From Clostridium sp. 'deep sea' (GTDB lineage Bacteria; Bacillota; UBA994; PWPR01): 64,000 nt of DNA. The stretch covers positions 3,348,001 to 3,412,000 of the forward strand of contig NZ_CP063353.1 in assembly GCF_014931565.1 (NCBI RefSeq), given 5' to 3'. Both the position numbers and the translations under genes were made by a program. The notes beneath the pieces are model-generated. The model saw only the letters and a program-made list of their open reading frames with translations, was not told where the DNA came from and searched no databases. This document shows, piece by piece, positions 1,463-11,818 of this stretch; the stretch's first letter is position 1, and each line of letters begins with the position of its first letter.

Positions 1463-1610
1463 GTTATTATTCAAGTATCAGTAAAACACATGTAGTGAAT
1501 GTGCCTCTGTGCCATTCATTTACGTAATTTTACACTAGTATTTAAGTAACTAACTATAAACATATGTTAATAACCATTGATGAATGGGTATATAAACTTA
1601 GGTGATATTT

Positions 1611-1841
1611 ATGTTTTTAAACTGTGACTTTATGTTTTTAATAACATCATTAATAGCAATTAGTTTTATTTTGGCCTATATGTTTGTTAACATAGGTTGT
1701 TTTAATAAGCTAAAAATTGCAGTAATTAGTTTTATTAAGCCTGTTAATATTGTAAAATATGTAATTTTAAATAATTTATATATAGTTAATTATAATAGTT
1801 ATAACAAATACTACATTTGGAGATACTGTGTTGAATTTTAA
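1611..1841 (+). CDS. Small membrane leader peptide, candidate MifM-like arrest peptide for yidC
   Basis: The 76-codon ORF has AGGTGA five bases before ATG 1611; a GTG at 1602 would add three residues but overlaps that site. Residues about 8-30 form a strong membrane segment (ITSLIAISFILAYMFVNIG), a second hydrophobic stretch follows after Lys-rich residues, and the tail is rich in Tyr and Asn and ends YYIWRYCVEF. The stop (1839-1841) lies inside the left arm of a perfect hairpin that abuts the ribosome binding site of the next gene, yidC. This layout of membrane-targeted peptide, translation-sensitive hairpin and YidC-family gene matches the MifM-yidC2 system of Bacillus subtilis. I see no sequence identity to MifM and infer the role from architecture alone. 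Without that role it would be an unsupported small ORF. Confidence 0.5.
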   Translation: MFLNCDFMFLITSLIAISFILAYMFVNIGCFNKLKIAVISFIKPVNIVKYVILNNLYIVNYNSYNKYYIWRYCVEF

Positions 1842-1884
1842 TATTAATTTTAGTTAGAGTAACAAACTAAAATTAATATTAAAA
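1836..1884 (+). promoter_or_regulatory. 20-bp perfect hairpin abutting the yidC ribosome binding site
   Basis: Arms 1836-1855 and 1865-1884 are exact reverse complements, with a 9-nt loop at 1856-1864. The stem is almost all A/T and is followed by GGAG, not T's, so it is not an intrinsic terminator for this strand. The right arm pairs the A-run of AAAAGGAG and ends one base before GGAG (1885-1888), so a folded stem should hinder 30S binding. A ribosome paused at the end of the upstream ORF would cover and open the left arm. Confidence 0.7.
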
Positions 1885-1897
1885 GGAGACAAACTTA

Positions 1898-2503
1898 ATG
1901 ATAACAAATTTATTTCAAACAGTAATTGATACTGTTAATAACCTTACCCACGATTATGGTTTAACTATTGTATTAGTAACCATAACAATAAACCTGCTCT
2001 TATTGCCACTAACAATAAAACAGCAGAAATCTATGAATTCCATGAAGGATTTATCAGATAAAGCCAATAAAATTAAAGAAAAATATAAAAATGATGAAGT
2101 AAAAATGAATGAAGAACTGCAAAAGCTTTATCAAACAAGTACTAGCTCTTATTCAGGCTGTTTAATAATGTTTTTACAGCTACCTATATTTATAGTTATG
2201 TATAGGCTATTTACTAAAAATATTGTAGATACAAGCACCAAACTATTACCATGGGTTAGTTCATTAACATTACCCGATCCGTATTTTATATTACCTATTT
2301 TGTATATTATAGTTCAGCTGCTACCTAATATTTTAGCGCAGTTCAATATCTTAAAAAGTGTTAATGTTGCAAAACTATCTATCCAAACAGTCGCTATGCC
2401 TGTTGTAATGTCTTTACTGTTAGTTGCTAAAATGCCCTCAGCTATGGGTATTTATTTTATTACATCAGCAGTAATAAGGAGTTTGCAGCAGTTAATTAAA
2501 TAG
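1898..2503 (+). CDS. yidC: YidC/Oxa1-family membrane protein insertase
   Basis: Inserts and folds membrane proteins, alone or with SecYEG. The 201-aa protein has the Gram-positive YidC core: a first TM segment (residues 20-40, with a polar residue in TIKQQK after it), a charged cytoplasmic helical hairpin (40-85), a TM segment with the SGCLIMFLQLPIFIVMYRL signature (about 88-108) and three further TM segments. No N-terminal signal sequence or lipobox cysteine is visible, unlike SpoIIIJ, and it is shorter than most family members. It does not lie in the usual rpmH-rnpA-yidC locus, so it is probably a second paralogue. The upstream leader ORF and hairpin suggest translational control in response to insertase capacity. 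Confidence 0.92.
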   Translation: MITNLFQTVIDTVNNLTHDYGLTIVLVTITINLLLLPLTIKQQKSMNSMKDLSDKANKIKEKYKNDEVKMNEELQKLYQTSTSSYSGCLIMFLQLPIFIVMYRLFTKNIVDTSTKLLPWVSSLTLPDPYFILPILYIIVQLLPNILAQFNILKSVNVAKLSIQTVAMPVVMSLLLVAKMPSAMGIYFITSAVIRSLQQLIK

Positions 2504-4012: not shown

Positions 4013-5131
4013 CTAATAATCGCCTCTTCCCATTTTATCTACCTTAATCTTAACATTAACTTTTATAGTGGATTTACAAACTATTTCATTCCAATCAACA
4101 CCTGTATGTCGTCCATATTTAGCTGCAGCAACGTGGCCTAATCTAAGACAATCAAACTTTAAATTTTGTTGCATATCTGTTATAAAATCATTACAGATTT
4201 TTTCTACATGTTCTTTCATATTCTTCTCAAATTTTTTCATAGTATCTTCGTCTTTATGAATACCATCAAACAAAGAATTATCTATTATGTCTCCATTAAA
4301 AGATAAATCAATGAAAAAAGTATATGTTTCATCTTTTTTTTCGCATTTTACCTTTCGTTTTGTTTTTGCAAAATAGCCGATATACTCTTTGAGATTTGAT
4401 TGCAATGTAAGCATACCTTTAACATTATTTTCTCTTAGGATATTCATTACTTTTACCTGATCCATATCTAATTTTTTAACCATTTTGTCTTCCTTAAATA
4501 ATGCCATACCCGTAATTTGAAGTTTGTCATCTTTTACTTCAATATATGGTAAAGCAATATTTTTTCCTTCAGAAGCGATACAAATAAATACATCACTAAG
4601 AATATATTTATGTGAAAAAAAATTAAATTCAGTAGAATGCTCTAATATACCTGCTATATAATCAGCAGCACTAGGATACTCTGGTACTTTATAATTTAAA
4701 ATATCTTCACACTTACCCTTACATATCGATACAAGTGCGGTATCATTTATATTGGGATTCTTAAAAAATATTTCCAAATAGCTTTTTATACCAGCCCTTG
4801 AGGCATCTTCACTAAACATTAAAACTCTTTCAATACCTAATATCATTTTTTTACTAGAAATCAGCTGTCTTGTTTCTCTGGTTTCGGGAATAGTACTACC
4901 ATATCCTGTGTGTGTTAAACTACTTATTTTTTCTTCTTCACCGTAATTATAAAAAGAAATAGGTACACTATACTCAATATTACCTAACTCATCTAAAACT
5001 AAATCAATTCCAACCCCCGAAGGAATATCCAACTCCTCAATAGGCAAAAAATCTTTTTCAAAACCAAAATAGAGGTAGATAACTGCTAAAATAATGAGAA
5101 TGACACCATATTTTTTTATTTTTTTATTCAT
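4013..5131 (-). CDS. gerAC: Spore germination protein, Ger(x)C family
   Basis: Third subunit of a GerA-type nutrient germinant receptor in the spore inner membrane. The 372-aa protein begins with a short basic stretch and a hydrophobic anchor (residues about 8-24), followed by PIEELDIPSGVGIDL, the family's usual opening strand, and the three-domain Ger(x)C body with late segments such as HVAAAKYGRHTGVDW. Oddly, no cysteine lies in or after the signal segment, so the lipobox of a normal GerAC lipoprotein is missing and the protein would be held by an uncleaved helix. AGGAGG lies 5 bases before the ATG, and the gene starts 9 bases after gerAB ends. Confidence 0.9.
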   Translation of the reverse strand: MNKKIKKYGVILIILAVIYLYFGFEKDFLPIEELDIPSGVGIDLVLDELGNIEYSVPISFYNYGEEEKISSLTHTGYGSTIPETRETRQLISSKKMILGIERVLMFSEDASRAGIKSYLEIFFKNPNINDTALVSICKGKCEDILNYKVPEYPSAADYIAGILEHSTEFNFFSHKYILSDVFICIASEGKNIALPYIEVKDDKLQITGMALFKEDKMVKKLDMDQVKVMNILRENNVKGMLTLQSNLKEYIGYFAKTKRKVKCEKKDETYTFFIDLSFNGDIIDNSLFDGIHKDEDTMKKFEKNMKEHVEKICNDFITDMQQNLKFDCLRLGHVAAAKYGRHTGVDWNEIVCKSTIKVNVKIKVDKMGRGDY

Positions 5132-5140
5132 AAATGCCTC

Positions 5141-6235
5141 CTAATTTGTTTTTGAATTTGGTTTTAATTTGGATTTTATTAATATTAACAAAGCTGTTAA
5201 ACTAAGAAATATAAAATTAAAAATGATAAAAGCCGGAGATGCAAATTCCAATATTTTTTCCTTTAATAGATTATTTGAGAGTTGTAATGATAAATAAATC
5301 ATTAGAGGATAAATATATATGCATATTTTTTTTGTTTCTATTTTAACGAATTGCTTTATGCTAAAAGCAGAAGCAAAATAAAAATTAGCGATACATTTAA
5401 AAATTATTAAAATCCATACAAACATTAATACGTATCTAAAATTATTAATAATTGGTATGTGTATGCTTTCATAAACCATTATAAAAGACCAATAACTTTT
5501 AGGTACTAAATCAATACCTAAATATACTATTGTTATAAAAACAATCCACACCCATATTACTGCACCTACTGCTAAGGCCTTTATCGAGGCTTTTATTGAG
5601 GACTTAGTGTCTTTTACATAGGGATAAAATAAAAGCAAGGATTCCCAGCCTGTATAAAAATAAGTAGTTTCTCTAGCAGTACTTATAATATTTGAAAAAC
5701 CCGAGCCAAAAACAGGTTTAATATTTATTATCTCTCCATCGTTTAAAGCTGCTAATGAAAATAATATTACTAAAAAGCTATAACCAATTAGTTCATTTGT
5801 TTTTCCTAAAACCTTTAATCCCTTATAAGCTGTAAACGCTGCTAAAGAAATCCCAATAATAATAACCTTAATTGGAGATAAAAAATCTACAATATAAGTT
5901 CTAACGAGATTAACAAAATCTGAGGTAACAGTTAAAGTAATGAGCAAAAACTGTAACATAAAAATAAAATTTAATATGCTTCCTAATATACGACCAAAGT
6001 ATTTTTCACTTAAGACAAGTATATTTTCCTTGGGGTGTTTTTTCATAAAATAGATGCCTATAAGAACAACAAATGTCGGATATAATTGTCCTATTATTGC
6101 AGCAATCCAGCCATCCTGGCCTGCTGTTTCTACAACAGCATTAGGAAACCTTAAAAAAGCAGGTCCAACAGAAAAACCTATTAACAAAAAAAATAGTTGA
6201 TTTGCAGTTAAAAGCTGTTTTTTTTGATTATTCAT
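5141..6235 (-). CDS. gerAB: Spore germination permease, GerAB/Ger(x)B family
   Basis: Integral membrane B subunit of the germinant receptor, an APC-superfamily permease-like protein implicated in germinant sensing. The 364-aa protein has about ten TM segments; the family signature NQLFFLLIGFSVGPAFLRFP lies near the N-terminus and the segment around TAYKGLKVLGKTNELIGYS in the middle. I prefer ATG 6235 (MNNQKK) over the in-frame ATG at 6262, because it follows a purine-rich AGGGAACG and gives an 8-base overlap with the end of gerAA; the 6262 start would lie deeper in gerAA without a ribosome site. Confidence 0.92.
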   Translation of the reverse strand: MNNQKKQLLTANQLFFLLIGFSVGPAFLRFPNAVVETAGQDGWIAAIIGQLYPTFVVLIGIYFMKKHPKENILVLSEKYFGRILGSILNFIFMLQFLLITLTVTSDFVNLVRTYIVDFLSPIKVIIIGISLAAFTAYKGLKVLGKTNELIGYSFLVILFSLAALNDGEIINIKPVFGSGFSNIISTARETTYFYTGWESLLLFYPYVKDTKSSIKASIKALAVGAVIWVWIVFITIVYLGIDLVPKSYWSFIMVYESIHIPIINNFRYVLMFVWILIIFKCIANFYFASAFSIKQFVKIETKKICIYIYPLMIYLSLQLSNNLLKEKILEFASPAFIIFNFIFLSLTALLILIKSKLKPNSKTN

Positions 6236-7682
6236 GCTTTTTCGTTCCCTGTCTATTTTCATTATTATTTGGAATAGCCTTAGGCCTTTTATTCATCATC
6301 CATAACGGAGCTCTTATAAATACATCCTTTAAATCACTACGACTAAATGAAAGATACGGCACTTTAAAACTCTCAAGGGAAAAAAGATGAACTATTAAGA
6401 AAAAGCAACCAGTAGCTATACCTAAAAAACCCAATGTATTAGCAAGTATTAACATAGGAAATCTTAAAAATCTTATGCTAAGTGACATGTCATAATTAGG
6501 TATTAAAAATGAAGCCACCACAGATACTCCAATTATCAGTAAAGTAGTAGGACTAGCGATTTTAGATGTAACAACAGCATCTCCTATGATAATACCTCCA
6601 ACAATGCTTAAGGTAGTAGCTACTTTAGGAGGTAATCTGAGCCCTCCTTCTCTTAAAAACTCTACAACTACTTCCATTAACAATATTTCAAGAAAAGGTG
6701 ATAATGCTATACCTTCTCTTGACATTACAATTGGATTAACAAATTTTACTGGAATAAGCTCAACATTAAAGCTTAAAAGAGACAGATAGATAGATGGTAA
6801 TGTTATTACAATAATAACTGCTATTATTCTAAGAAAGCGGGCAAACGAAGCTACTATTGTTCTTTGATGATAATCTTCAACTGCTTGAAAAAACTCTATA
6901 AAGACAGCTGGAACTGTAAGGACATAAGAATTGCCGTTTAGTAAAATAGCAATTCTACCTTCCATTAAATTGGCATTTACTATATCAGGTCGTTCTGTTC
7001 CATATACTTGTGGAAATATAGAATAAGTACTATCTTCTATAAATTGCTCTAGTGTTCCATTAACATAATCAACATCTATACTGTTTATTCTATTTCGGAC
7101 TTCATTTAATACATCCTTATCTACTATATCTTCTATGTATAAAAGAGCTAAATCGGTTTGAGAGCGTTTTCCAACCTTAAACTTCTCTATTGCTAATTTA
7201 TTATCCTTAATTCTTCTTCTCATTATGCTAATATTGGTTTTTAAGTTTTCTACAAAACCCTCTCTCGAACCCCTAATAGCTGATTCCGATGGGGGATCAG
7301 TTATAGAACGAAAATTTCCACCTATAGTACCAGCTAAAATAAAGTCTTCTATTCCTTCTATTAATATAACTGTCTTTCCTGATTTTATAGAATCTATTAC
7401 TTGTAATATATCATTTGTTATTTCAGTATTAGACATTGGTACATATTTATTACAGATATATTCTGCAGTAGTTTCTCTTAAGATATCTTCATTTACGTGA
7501 AGCATTAATGGATTTAAGATATCTCTATCTATAATGTCTTTATTAATCAAGCCATTTACATATATTATTGCTGCATTCAAGATATTTTTATTTCCGATAA
7601 AAAAGTTTTTAACAATTACAGGGCTCTTGACCCCTAGTTCATTAACAATAAAATCTATATTTTTATCAAGCTTTGTTTTCAT
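6228..7682 (-). CDS. gerAA: Spore germination protein, GerAA/SpoVAF family
   Basis: A subunit of the germinant receptor. It has a hydrophilic N-terminal half (to about residue 280) with the family segments around VILIEGIEDFILAGT and TDPPSESAIRGSREGFVENL, then a membrane half of four to five TM segments containing SREGIALSPFLEILLMEVV. The length (484 aa) is typical. First gene of the operon gerAA-gerAB-gerAC. ATG 7682 is chosen because GGTGA lies 5 bases before it; ATG 7694, four codons upstream, has a poorly spaced site. Such operons are normally read in the forespore by sigma-G; a -10-like TATACTA lies upstream but I cannot place a convincing -35. Confidence 0.93.
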   Translation of the reverse strand: MKTKLDKNIDFIVNELGVKSPVIVKNFFIGNKNILNAAIIYVNGLINKDIIDRDILNPLMLHVNEDILRETTAEYICNKYVPMSNTEITNDILQVIDSIKSGKTVILIEGIEDFILAGTIGGNFRSITDPPSESAIRGSREGFVENLKTNISIMRRRIKDNKLAIEKFKVGKRSQTDLALLYIEDIVDKDVLNEVRNRINSIDVDYVNGTLEQFIEDSTYSIFPQVYGTERPDIVNANLMEGRIAILLNGNSYVLTVPAVFIEFFQAVEDYHQRTIVASFARFLRIIAVIIVITLPSIYLSLLSFNVELIPVKFVNPIVMSREGIALSPFLEILLMEVVVEFLREGGLRLPPKVATTLSIVGGIIIGDAVVTSKIASPTTLLIIGVSVVASFLIPNYDMSLSIRFLRFPMLILANTLGFLGIATGCFFLIVHLFSLESFKVPYLSFSRSDLKDVFIRAPLWMMNKRPKAIPNNNENRQGTKKHE

Positions 7683-7907
7683 TATTATCACCATTTACAC
7701 CAATATAGTATAGTTTTTCTCTAGTAATAAGTATCGCTACCAAGCAGTGTAATTATACACATAAATAATATTAGTGAATATTGAATAAATATTATTTAAA
7801 TTCAAGAATTTAGTATGTAATTAGCTGTTAAAACTGTAAACTCTCTTATTTTATTTAATACAATAAGGGCTATTTTAGGCAAAAGTAAAAAATAGTAACA
7901 ATAACTA

Positions 7908-7955: not shown

Positions 7956-8098
7956 TAAAATGGTGGTGATGAAAATAAATGCCTTAGAGGTTTAAAGTGT
8001 TACATATATTAAAGACAGTAAATATTTATGCAAAACTGAATAACTGATTAAAATTGCAAATTATTAATAACATTAAGTTATTGGAGGTAAGTAAAATA

Positions 8099-8824
8099 AT
8101 GAATCAAAAAAACTTGTTTATGAAAAATGTAACAATAAGTAAAGCCGCTGTATTGCTATTAAGCTTAATTTTAATATGTGCCATTGCAGCTGGAGAAGTA
8201 TTTACAGCTAATGCTTTACATGAAGATAGAAACAATGGCGAACAAAGTACATGTATATTCAGTACAGGAAAAGATGGTAAAACAGAAGTCAGTTTAGATA
8301 ATGGTGAAACCTGGATTGATGGAGACGACTATCTTAAAGATATGCCACTTATGGATTTTGAGTATTATAGCTATGAGGAGTATAAAGCATGGATAGAGCA
8401 GCAAAAGATAGAATTTCCAAAGCTGCTTGGTGAAAGATGCTGGAATCAAACTGATGGCTGGTTTATCTGGACCCAAGAGCATACAGATGAAGCCATTAAA
8501 CTGTATGAAGACTTATTAGAAAAAATTAAAAATGGAATGTTATTATCAAAGCCCTTAATTGAAGGTGATGATGATAGCTGTATTGTATCTATGCATGGAC
8601 ATTCTATTAGTGAGAATGACAACTATGGAACAAGCTTTGGTAGTTATCTTACTTTAGAGAATGGTGAAGTGATTGAATTTGGCCCCTGTGATTCTGCAGA
8701 GGCCTTGGCTGAAGAAGTTAAAAAATATTGTGAAGAACAAGTAGCAAATGGCTTTTTAACAATAGAAGAGGCCAATGAAATTTTAAAAGATCATAATATA
8801 ACACTAGACTCTAAAACTATTTAA
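8099..8824 (+). CDS. Exported protein resembling the C-terminal extracellular domain of the BlaR1-like sensor
   Basis: The 241-aa protein has a ribosome site TTGGAGGT 12 bases before ATG 8099 (an in-frame ATG at 8054 lacks one). The N-terminus is signal-peptide-like: positive residues, hydrophobic AAVLLLSLILICAIAA (about 15-30), then FTANA as a possible cleavage site. The body contains VSLDNGETWIDGDDY, YYSYEEYKAWIEQQKIEF, ERCWNQTDGWFIWTQ and a closing EEVKKYCEEQVANGFLTIEEAN. The same blocks in the same order are found in the next gene and in the last 200 residues of the M56 protein at 10226. Function is unknown; sharing of the operator with blaI suggests co-regulation. Confidence 0.75.
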   Translation: MNQKNLFMKNVTISKAAVLLLSLILICAIAAGEVFTANALHEDRNNGEQSTCIFSTGKDGKTEVSLDNGETWIDGDDYLKDMPLMDFEYYSYEEYKAWIEQQKIEFPKLLGERCWNQTDGWFIWTQEHTDEAIKLYEDLLEKIKNGMLLSKPLIEGDDDSCIVSMHGHSISENDNYGTSFGSYLTLENGEVIEFGPCDSAEALAEEVKKYCEEQVANGFLTIEEANEILKDHNITLDSKTI

Positions 8825-8868: not shown

Positions 8869-8938
8869 GGTAAACCTGTAGAGCAAACAGTAGTACAAGT
8901 CATTATTAGCATTTAAGTTATTGGAGGTAAAAAAAATA

Positions 8939-9685
8939 ATGAAACATACAAACTTAACAACTAAATATGTAACAATAAGTAAAGCAGCAGTATTGCTGTT
9001 AAGTTTAATTTTAATATGTGCCATAGGAACAAATGAAGTATTTGCAGCTAATAGTTTTGAAAAAGATAAAAACAATATTGATGAAAATTCTAATATCATA
9101 ATGTCTCGCTTAAATAAACATGGTGAAGAAGAAGTCAGTTTAGATTACGGAGAAACATGGATAAATGAAGCTGAATATTACAAAGATAATCCCCTTGTTG
9201 AGTTAGAGTATTACAGCTATGAGGAATACAAAGCATGGCTTGAGCAGGAAAAGATTGATTTACAAAATATAGTTGGTGAAAAAGGCTGGAATCCAACTGA
9301 TGGCTGGTATACATGGACTCAAGAAAAGATAAATGAAGCTATTAGTATGTATGAGCAAACATTAGAAGATATAAAAAATGGTAAACTAGTATCAAAACCG
9401 TTATGTGTAGCTGGTGATAATGATTGTGTTATTGCTATGGTTGGTGAATATTGGCCAGATAAAGAACATATAAAAGCTAGATCATCCTTTGCTTGTATCC
9501 TTATTTTAAATAGTGGTAAAACTGTTGAGTTTGGACCCTATGATACTAAGGAAGCCTTAGGTGAAGAAGTTAAAAAATACTGTGAAGAACAAGTGGCAAA
9601 TGGCTCTTTAACATTAGAAGAGGCCAATGAGAATTTAAAAGAATTTGGTTTAGTAATAGAAGTTAATAAAGCTAAAACAGTATAA
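8939..9685 (+). CDS. Second exported paralogue of the sensor extracellular domain
   Basis: The 248-aa protein has TTGGAGGT upstream of ATG 8939. Its N-terminus is nearly the same as its neighbour's (ISKAAVLLLSLILICAI) and has a possible AxA-type cleavage at VFAAN. The body repeats the blocks VSLDYGETWINEAEYY, YYSYEEYKAWLEQEKIDLQ, GEKGWNPTDGWYTWTQ and EEVKKYCEEQVANGSLTLEEAN. GEKGWNPT-GWY-WTQ also appears in the BlaR1-like protein downstream, so these look like tandem duplicates of that protein's last TM segment plus sensor domain. No enzymatic motif was recognised. Confidence 0.75.
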   Translation: MKHTNLTTKYVTISKAAVLLLSLILICAIGTNEVFAANSFEKDKNNIDENSNIIMSRLNKHGEEEVSLDYGETWINEAEYYKDNPLVELEYYSYEEYKAWLEQEKIDLQNIVGEKGWNPTDGWYTWTQEKINEAISMYEQTLEDIKNGKLVSKPLCVAGDNDCVIAMVGEYWPDKEHIKARSSFACILILNSGKTVEFGPYDTKEALGEEVKKYCEEQVANGSLTLEEANENLKEFGLVIEVNKAKTV

Positions 9686-9846: not shown

Positions 9847-10224
9847 ATGAGTAATTTAAAAAAACTGCCTAATACAGAATTCGAAATTATGAAGGTTGTA
9901 TGGGCTAATGAACCCCCTATTACTACAAATATAGTTATGGAGCAATTGGGTCAAAAACGTAAGTGGAAAGCCCCTACAATTATTTCTCTAATGCTTAGGT
10001 TAGTAGAGAGAGGGTATTTAAGCACAGAAAAAAGAGGAAAAAACAGAGTATATTTTCCTGTGGTTTCCAAAGAAGAGTATCTTAACTTCGAAACTGGAAA
10101 CTTTATGAAACTTTATCACGAAAACTCATTTCTTAGTTTTGTTAATACTTTTTATGATGGAAAACAACTTAGTGATTGCGATATAGAGGAACTAATGAAA
10201 TGGGTGAAAGAGCAGCGAAACTGA
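9847..10224 (+). CDS. blaI: BlaI/MecI-family transcriptional repressor
   Basis: Dimeric winged-helix repressor of the BlaI/MecI/CopY family, 125 aa. It opens KLPNTEFEIMKVVWANEPPI, the family's first helix, followed by the recognition region WKAPTIISLMLRLVERGYL and the wing (STEKRGKNRVYFPVV); the C-terminal helices from about residue 75 should dimerise and carry the proteolytic switch. AAAGGAG lies 9 bases before ATG 9847. The next gene, a BlaR1-like sensor protease, starts just past its stop, the classical sensor-repressor pair. No beta-lactamase gene is adjacent, so the regulon here probably includes the two exported proteins. Confidence 0.93.
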   Translation: MSNLKKLPNTEFEIMKVVWANEPPITTNIVMEQLGQKRKWKAPTIISLMLRLVERGYLSTEKRGKNRVYFPVVSKEEYLNFETGNFMKLYHENSFLSFVNTFYDGKQLSDCDIEELMKWVKEQRN

Positions 10225-10225
10225 T

Positions 10226-11818
10226 ATGCAGTACTTTATAAATTTATTAATAACTTGCTCTATATCTATGTCGGTGCTTATTCTTATTTACATTATTACA
10301 ACTCCGTGGCTATCAAAAAAATATGATGCAAAGTGGATTTATTACGCTTGGCTGGTGATAATAGTAGGGCTTATCATACCCTTTCGAGTTAATTTTAATA
10401 CCGCAATATTTACAATAGATCCCATACCTGTTGCAACTAAGGTACAGCAGGGTATAACTATCACACGTACAGTTGCTGAGCCTAATGCAAGTTTATATAC
10501 TTATTCTGATATGTTATATCCAAAAACTACAACTATTAACTGGTCTGCTATAGTGGCATTTATTTGGATTGTTGGGGCACTACTATTTGTTACATCTAAA
10601 ATATTTAAACACTACAAGTTTATTAAAATGGCAAACAGATGGAGTGAGCAGGTAAAAGATCCACAACTGCTTAGTTTATTACATAATATAAAGCAAGATA
10701 TGGCAATATCTAAAAATATAGAAATTCAAATATGTTCTTGTATAACAAGTCCTATGATGATTGGCTTTGTTAAGCCTGTAATTTTACTTCCAGTAGCTAA
10801 CTTTAGTTTAGATGAGTTACAGCTTATTTTAAGGCATGAGCTGGTACACTTTAAACGAAAGGATTTATGGTATAAGTGTCTTGTATTTATGGCAACTGCC
10901 ATTCACTGGTTTAATCCTGTAGTTTATTTAATGGCAAAGGCAATTGCTGATCAATGTGAGATTTCTTGTGATGCAGAAGTAGTAAAAGGTAGCAATCTCC
11001 TTAATAGGCAGCAGTATAGTGAAACTATTATTGGGGTAATTAAAAATCAATCAAAAATGCAAACTGTTTTTGCCACAAATTTTTACGGTGGAATTAAAGG
11101 CATGAAAAAAAGAATATTCTCTATTATGGATATAACAAAGAAAAAATGTGGAGCTATTGTTTTGGTTATGATTTTAATAGGCACAATGGCAACAGGTAGT
11201 GTTTTTGCAGTCTCAGAAAAAGCAGTCAATACAGCAAATAAAAGTGTTCAGTTTGCTGAAAAAAATGGTTTAGCTACTGATTTATATAACACCGATGTAT
11301 CACAAGTTATAATAAGTATAGATGATGGAGATACATTTATGTATAACCAAGACCCTAAAAGAGCTCGAACAATACCAAATATTGTATGGTGGACTTACGA
11401 TGAATACAAAACATGGTTAAAGCAAGAAAAAATAAACCTACAGCAGATAATTGGTGAAAAAGGCTGGAATCCAACTGAGGGTTGGTATGTGTGGACTCAA
11501 CAGCGTGTTGATAAAGCTCTACAGCGTTATGAAAAAACTTTACAGGATATTAAAGTGGGTATAAAAGTATCTAAAACCGTAAATGGCAAACAAAATATAG
11601 CTATGGTTTCTACTCCAATTAATAAAGCTAAAATTACAACAGCCCCAAGTTATATTATTACAGTGGTAGATGAAAAAGGAAATGAAAAAGTTTTTGGTCC
11701 TTGTGAATCAGAGCAAGATTTACTTGATACTGTTAAATCATACTATCACAGGCAAATAGCAGACGGTACTATAGCGCAATCGGAAGCCGATAAAATTATA
11801 AAAAAAATTACTAAGTAA
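10226..11818 (+). CDS. blaR1: BlaR1-like M56-family membrane metallopeptidase sensor
   Basis: The 530-aa membrane protein starts one base after the blaI stop. N-terminal TM segments lie at about 7-27, 37-55 and 110-128. The cytoplasmic zinc-protease region carries LRHELVHFKRKDLW (HExxH, about 208-222) and the later metal ligand segment CEISCDAEVV. After a last TM segment (about 308-330, IVLVMILIGTMATGSVFA) comes a roughly 200-residue extracellular domain with GEKGWNPTEGWYVWTQ. There is no penicillin-binding SxxK domain of staphylococcal type, so the ligand is unlikely to be sensed through a beta-lactamase fold. By family analogy, sensing activates the protease and leads to BlaI loss. The extracellular domain is duplicated as the two exported proteins upstream. 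Confidence 0.9.
   Translation: MQYFINLLITCSISMSVLILIYIITTPWLSKKYDAKWIYYAWLVIIVGLIIPFRVNFNTAIFTIDPIPVATKVQQGITITRTVAEPNASLYTYSDMLYPKTTTINWSAIVAFIWIVGALLFVTSKIFKHYKFIKMANRWSEQVKDPQLLSLLHNIKQDMAISKNIEIQICSCITSPMMIGFVKPVILLPVANFSLDELQLILRHELVHFKRKDLWYKCLVFMATAIHWFNPVVYLMAKAIADQCEISCDAEVVKGSNLLNRQQYSETIIGVIKNQSKMQTVFATNFYGGIKGMKKRIFSIMDITKKKCGAIVLVMILIGTMATGSVFAVSEKAVNTANKSVQFAEKNGLATDLYNTDVSQVIISIDDGDTFMYNQDPKRARTIPNIVWWTYDEYKTWLKQEKINLQQIIGEKGWNPTEGWYVWTQQRVDKALQRYEKTLQDIKVGIKVSKTVNGKQNIAMVSTPINKAKITTAPSYIITVVDEKGNEKVFGPCESEQDLLDTVKSYYHRQIADGTIAQSEADKIIKKITK

Follow-up and report, generated by a model that had tools for sequence, protein, structure and literature searches.

What is the role of the 76-codon open reading frame (ORF) that precedes a second yidC gene in Clostridium sp. 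'deep sea'? It lies in the window analyzed here, a 64 kb stretch (positions 3348001-3412000) of a single-contig 3.83 Mb genome, where metG ends at window position 1365 and is followed on the plus strand by AGGTGA, the 76-codon ORF, a 20-bp stem, GGAG and yidC2. Sequence comparison indicates that the ORF very probably encodes a CliM (Clostridium insertase monitor) leader controlling the second YidC insertase. The system is of a known kind, the CliM family having been published in 2024 and 2026, and this locus is an additional member. What is new, judging from the sequences, is a CliM lineage beyond the Clostridiaceae-like family, two more divergent relatives and a hairpin that is placed differently. 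Here, "Clostridiaceae-like" is our interpretation of family f137 from the Clostridium kluyveri context of the CliM paper and not a given label, and placement outside the class of these genomes follows the kinship column of the genome set only. For the CliM identity we rely on sequence homology, on a conserved architecture with the stem geometry, and on the pairing of the two genes. That the peptide would arrest, that membrane insertion would release it, and that yidC2 induction would depend on the arrest and on the stem is carried over from CliM experiments (PMC13183943).

The leader peptide and the CliM family

The uC_KYxIW family was identified in 2024 (PMC10987492), then renamed CliM and characterised in 2026, when it was shown to stall ribosomes and to monitor YidC activity (PMC13183943). 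Ribosomes translating Clostridioides difficile CliM arrest when F76 occupies the P site and UAA the A site; K66 and W70 of the peptide are essential (PMC13183943). The window peptide resembles this protein (PDB 9FY1-9FY3; PMC13183943) in its N-terminal membrane segment, in the yidC gene downstream and in its length of 76 aa, with shared numbering: K66-Y-x-I-W70, R71-Y-C73 and F76, followed by UAA. The C-terminal KYYIWRYCVEF-stop of the window and KYDIWRYCSLF-stop of C. difficile CliM (PDB 9FY1) are identical at 8 of 11 positions, and the end-anchored score between the two peptides was higher than those of all 200,000 shuffles. The PDB 9FY1 chain covers residues 39-76 (38 residues). Because pairwise MAFFT alignment with this chain misplaced gaps, the comparison was made ungapped and anchored at the end, and was complemented by an alignment of multiple members.

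A profile (A5) was built from 14 CliM peptides without that of the window, in order to avoid circularity, and also without that of the Lachnospiraceae relative L034 described below. Its sole match in the 3.83 Mb genome was the window ORF (E=5.1e-7, model positions 2-75 of 75). Even before homology is considered, the ORF is unlikely to be there by chance, because, when the 532-nt intergenic region was shuffled 2000 times, a plus-strand ORF of at least 76 codons arose in only 10 cases. Pfam and NCBIfam hold no model for the leader peptide, and a phmmer search of PDB with the whole peptide returned chance matches only; the CliM chain was retrieved only with residues collected from the CliM paper. 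The features of the locus are listed below in window coordinates.

1600..1605, plus strand: Shine-Dalgarno (SD)-like AGGTGA of the leader ORF, seen in the sequence, 5 nt upstream of the ATG at 1611
1611..1841, plus strand: cliM-like leader ORF P0001, 76 aa, stop TAA at 1839-1841, assigned by profile and C-terminal identity
1632..1688, plus strand: N-terminal membrane segment, residues 8-26, hydropathy maximum 2.41
1806..1820, plus strand: KYxIW arrest motif, K66-Y-Y-I-W70, with the same residue numbers as in C. difficile CliM
1836..1841, plus strand: predicted principal stall, with the P site on the F76 codon and the A site on UAA, based on toeprints of C. difficile CliM (PMC13183943) and the identical position
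1836..1855, plus strand: 5' arm of the 20-bp stem, starting at the F76 codon
1865..1884, plus strand: 3' arm of the 20-bp stem, ending directly before GGAG
1885..1888, plus strand: GGAG, SD core of yidC2, seen in the sequence
1898..2503, plus strand: yidC2, second YidC/Oxa1-family insertase, 201 aa (PF02096 E=9.7e-37; TIGR03592 126.6 bits over cut-off), in the CliM-linked clade

Residues 8-26 are the most hydrophobic 19-mer of the leader and are followed by K33, K35 and K43; by the positive-inside rule, an N-out/C-in orientation is predicted. About 50 residues separate this segment from F76, against the spacer of >30 aa to the stall site used as a CliM criterion. Among other arrest-critical residues of C. 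difficile CliM, Y61 and R71 are identical in the window, and R49K and F64Y are conservative changes.

Two observations weigh against the CliM reading. Residues Y52, S53, R56, P58 and Q60, found critical in C. difficile CliM by deep mutational scanning, are not kept and read I, L, L, I and N; other members vary there too. In addition, neither the SD core nor the AUG is included in the window helix, in contrast to Clostridiaceae-like relatives. The five altered mid-tunnel residues would fit a CliM homologue with lost or weakened arrest, in which yidC2 is mainly under ordinary coupling and any ribosome terminating at 1839-1841 opens the stem; with the stop inside the stem, termination alone would do so. 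We consider this improbable. The block proximal to the peptidyl transferase center (K66, I69, W70 and R71, plus Y61) is the most important one, and it is intact while the rest has diverged, which is the pattern expected under selection for arrest.

A CliM-type stall in the window may occur at more than one codon. Residues 74-75 are V74-E75 in the window and S74-L75 in C. difficile CliM, where replacement of S74 by Val or Leu unlocks a stall one codon earlier (PMC13183943). Since the window peptide has V74, a stall at codon 75 (elongation) is to be expected besides that at codon 76 (termination), V74 and UAA predicting these two stalls. According to the passage of the CliM paper on residue 75, the release factor is blocked only by a bulky side chain at this position, Ile, Val and Trp being active and Ala, Gly and Ser inactive (PMC13183943). 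The substitutions given there do not include Glu, the residue of the window, but several CliM members have Glu at this position. C. kluyveri CliM (PMC10987492, PMC13183943) shares with the window the motif, the membrane segment, the stem between the cliM end and the second yidC, and a Val N-terminal to the -1 stall site. However, its ORF continues beyond the stall site (elongation arrest), and its stem is said to extend over the yidC2 initiation site; the window stem stops just before the SD.

The earlier note on this DNA had recognised the architecture and purpose of Bacillus subtilis MifM-yidC2, namely an insertase-monitoring upstream ORF (uORF) opening a hairpin for a second yidC, and had suggested that the peptide could be an independently evolved insertase sensor. 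Homology to the proven CliM system gives good support to the first part. It does not support the second, the peptide having the CliM motif, C-terminal identity and profile match. MifM-yidC2 does share with the window an insertase-sensing nascent chain, a hairpin and a secondary yidC, and the general layout (membrane segment, stem, second yidC) is the argument for orthology with MifM or for an arrest peptide that evolved independently. Either origin is scarcely credible, as the homology to CliM spans the full length of the peptide and the YidC downstream clusters with CliM-linked YidCs. MifM differs from the window ORF in its length of 95 codons and its arrest at codons 89-92 (PMC6037786), and its SD is inside the stem whereas the window SD core is outside. 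The MifM arrest segment (R69-A90 plus an acidic tail, PMC6037786), compared by description only, is not in the 76-codon window ORF, which has one acidic residue after codon 40 (E75). Both candidates were rejected, the CliM profile match largely refuting them. Actinobacterial ApcA-yidC2 likewise has a yidC2 uORF with an N-terminal signal and a C-terminal arrest motif, but this motif is of the RAPG type; P0001 contains none of RAPP, RAPG, RAGP and RGPP, which mark the C-terminal region of ApcA, ApdA and ApdP type peptides.

The hairpin and the proposed switch

The two arms, 1836-1855 and 1865-1884, form 20 of 20 pairs around a 9-nt loop. This is the only perfect 20-bp stem (loop 3-30) within the 64 kb window, none was found in 20 dinucleotide shuffles, and the RNA fold had z = -3.7. 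It was thus correctly noted earlier that the 76-codon ORF with its N-terminal membrane segment ends in the left arm of a perfect 20-bp stem. The adjacency of the right arm to GGAG stands as well, without the single base said to separate them: the arm, at -33 to -14 from the yidC2 AUG, meets G1885 with no spacer, and only the AA preceding the GGAG core is inside the stem. The left arm starts right at the predicted stall codon, which fits control by stalling, and a helix of 20 bp next to the SD would be expected to impede docking of the 30S subunit. The predicted cost of opening the yidC2 start region was 6.5 kcal/mol in free RNA and 2.7 after removal of the predicted stalled footprint. Across 30 loci, median predicted costs for the yidC start were 10.5 kcal/mol in free RNA vs 5.0 with the footprint of a W+6 stall removed, the fall exceeding 2 kcal/mol in 28 of them.

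An ordinary gene for a small membrane protein, followed by a hairpin that acts as a terminator, stabilizes the RNA or is left over from a mobile element, might be suggested by the AT-rich, poorly informative N-terminal half and the almost entirely A-U stem. This alternative is hardly worth entertaining, given the conserved C-terminal motif and a stem that is unique in the window, lies between stop and SD as in relatives, lacks a following T-run and had no match in an Rfam scan. An ordinary terminator was rejected on the missing T-run. Upstream of the leader ORF, an imperfect inverted repeat (1481-1536) follows the metG terminator (about 1424-1465).

By analogy with the published CliM switch, low YidC capacity would leave the N-terminal membrane segment of the leader uninserted, and the C-terminal KYYIWRYCVEF would hold the ribosome near codon 76 with UAA in the A site. 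The stalled ribosome would cover ~16 of the 20 nt of the left arm, so that the stem could not form and yidC2 would be translated. Working insertion would instead pull on the nascent chain and release the stall; once the ribosome has departed, the stem would form against the SD and yidC2 would be repressed. The housekeeping YidC is the activity likely to be monitored.

Relatives of the leader and of YidC2

The genome has two PF02096 genes, the other being the housekeeping YidC in an rpmH-rnpA-yidD-yidC-jag locus away from the window (gene names from sequence). The CliM-linked loci that were checked lack rnpA and yidD, unlike the housekeeping set. The second yidC has no close relative in 14 other genomes of the class. 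In phylogenetic trees, the window YidC and all CliM-linked YidCs fell on one side and 34 other YidCs, which are housekeeping copies by context wherever checked, on the other (99.9 in the Shimodaira-Hasegawa approximate likelihood ratio test in one tree, 100/100 in another). CliM-linked YidCs thus form one group, and peptide and insertase travel together. Within it, the window YidC clusters with those of genomes G069 and G312 (100/91), adjoining the Clostridiaceae-like clade.

When 399 genomes of the phylum were searched at the protein level, one clear relative of the leader emerged, in G361 (L063/L092). Another relative (...DKYQIWRY...) was present in the Lachnospiraceae metagenome-assembled genome (MAG) with the best-scoring named YidC relative (L034). 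A profile from the window, G361 and L034 peptides matched in 61 of 227 genomes of the G361 order, near-threshold matches having been only partly checked. Counting the window, 31 loci were read. The motif residues K, Y and W do not vary among them, R follows the motif W in 28, Y is found at W-9 in 30, and Y or F at W-6 in all 31; the window fits each. The stop comes directly after W+6 in 17 of the 31, the window among them, and a yidC start lies 23-133 nt downstream wherever the next gene could be seen, compared with 56 nt from leader stop to yidC2 ATG in the window.

Two peptides from other families, both divergent, were also matched by the profile built without the window peptide: G069 (VVNYEAFNKYQVWKLYNQY-stop) and G312 (LSVLNYQTYSKCEIWKLYNQY-stop), each directly upstream of yidC (L123 1473-1720 and L124 1440-1720). 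These uORFs end in K[YC]x[IV]WKLYNQY-stop, and the KCEIW form would escape the published KYxIW consensus. G069 and G312 are each the sole CliM carrier among five genomes of their own order. The class of the window is equally patchy, with one carrier in 15 genomes and no profile match in G001, of the same genus, or in the 13 others. A subgroup of CliM peptides (L100, L103, L104, L109, L113-L115, L121) has a longer tail, with 12 residues after W and ending in MMF, and part of its left stem arm lies outside the RNA that a ribosome halted at W+6 covers; these members may stall elsewhere or be relieved in another way.

The earlier note had proposed looking in relatives for conservation of the ORF and for compensatory changes in the stem. 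The ORF frame and C-terminal residues are conserved. Compensation is found, in stems on yidC codons 2-5, a form other than that of the window: the distance from the first base of the stall codon to the start of the left arm, which pairs with these codons, is 3-12 nt in 27 of 28 Clostridiaceae-like loci. Pairs alternate between G-C and A-U (21 vs 7 at one position) and other types, and because pair types switch, these stems are kept by compensation, even though their right arm is also coding. The G069 and G312 stems pair across the SD and start, and the L034 stem, like that of the window, ends shortly before its own SD. When the window leader was searched for a stretch that could pair instead with yidC2 codons 2-5, the best had 8 of 12 pairs, and no orthologue of the window's stem form was found in the 14 other genomes of the class.

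Other features of the window and wider meaning

Elsewhere in the window, a shared domain (YYSYEEYKAW...WN.T.GW..WTQ) occurs in secreted-looking ORFs at 8054-8824 and 8921-9685 and in the C-terminal third of a BlaR1/MecR1-type protein (10226-11818), whose gene adjoins that of a BlaI/MecI-type repressor (9847-10224). The domain seems to serve as a sensor and to occur also by itself, as separate secreted proteins. A GerA-type spore germination gene cluster is present on the minus strand (4013-7694), and the host is therefore probably a spore former.

CliM-type insertase monitoring very probably extends to a lineage that the genome set assigns to another class than the Clostridiaceae-like genomes, and the two divergent relatives, with their relaxed motif K[YC]x[IV]W[RK], extend the range of natural mutants available for the CliM arrest structure. 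These loci suggest that the peptide part of the switch can be conserved when its RNA part is re-wired. Tentatively, CliM could belong to a broader and older family of insertase monitors, of scattered occurrence in Bacillota, in which peptide and YidC2 stay together and the RNA switch is re-invented, at codons 2-5 in Clostridiaceae-like genomes, at SD and start in G069 and G312, and at the upstream edge of the SD in the window and the Lachnospiraceae MAG. If this is true, the SD-edge form of the stem would repress by blocking 30S docking upstream of the SD, not by hiding SD or AUG.
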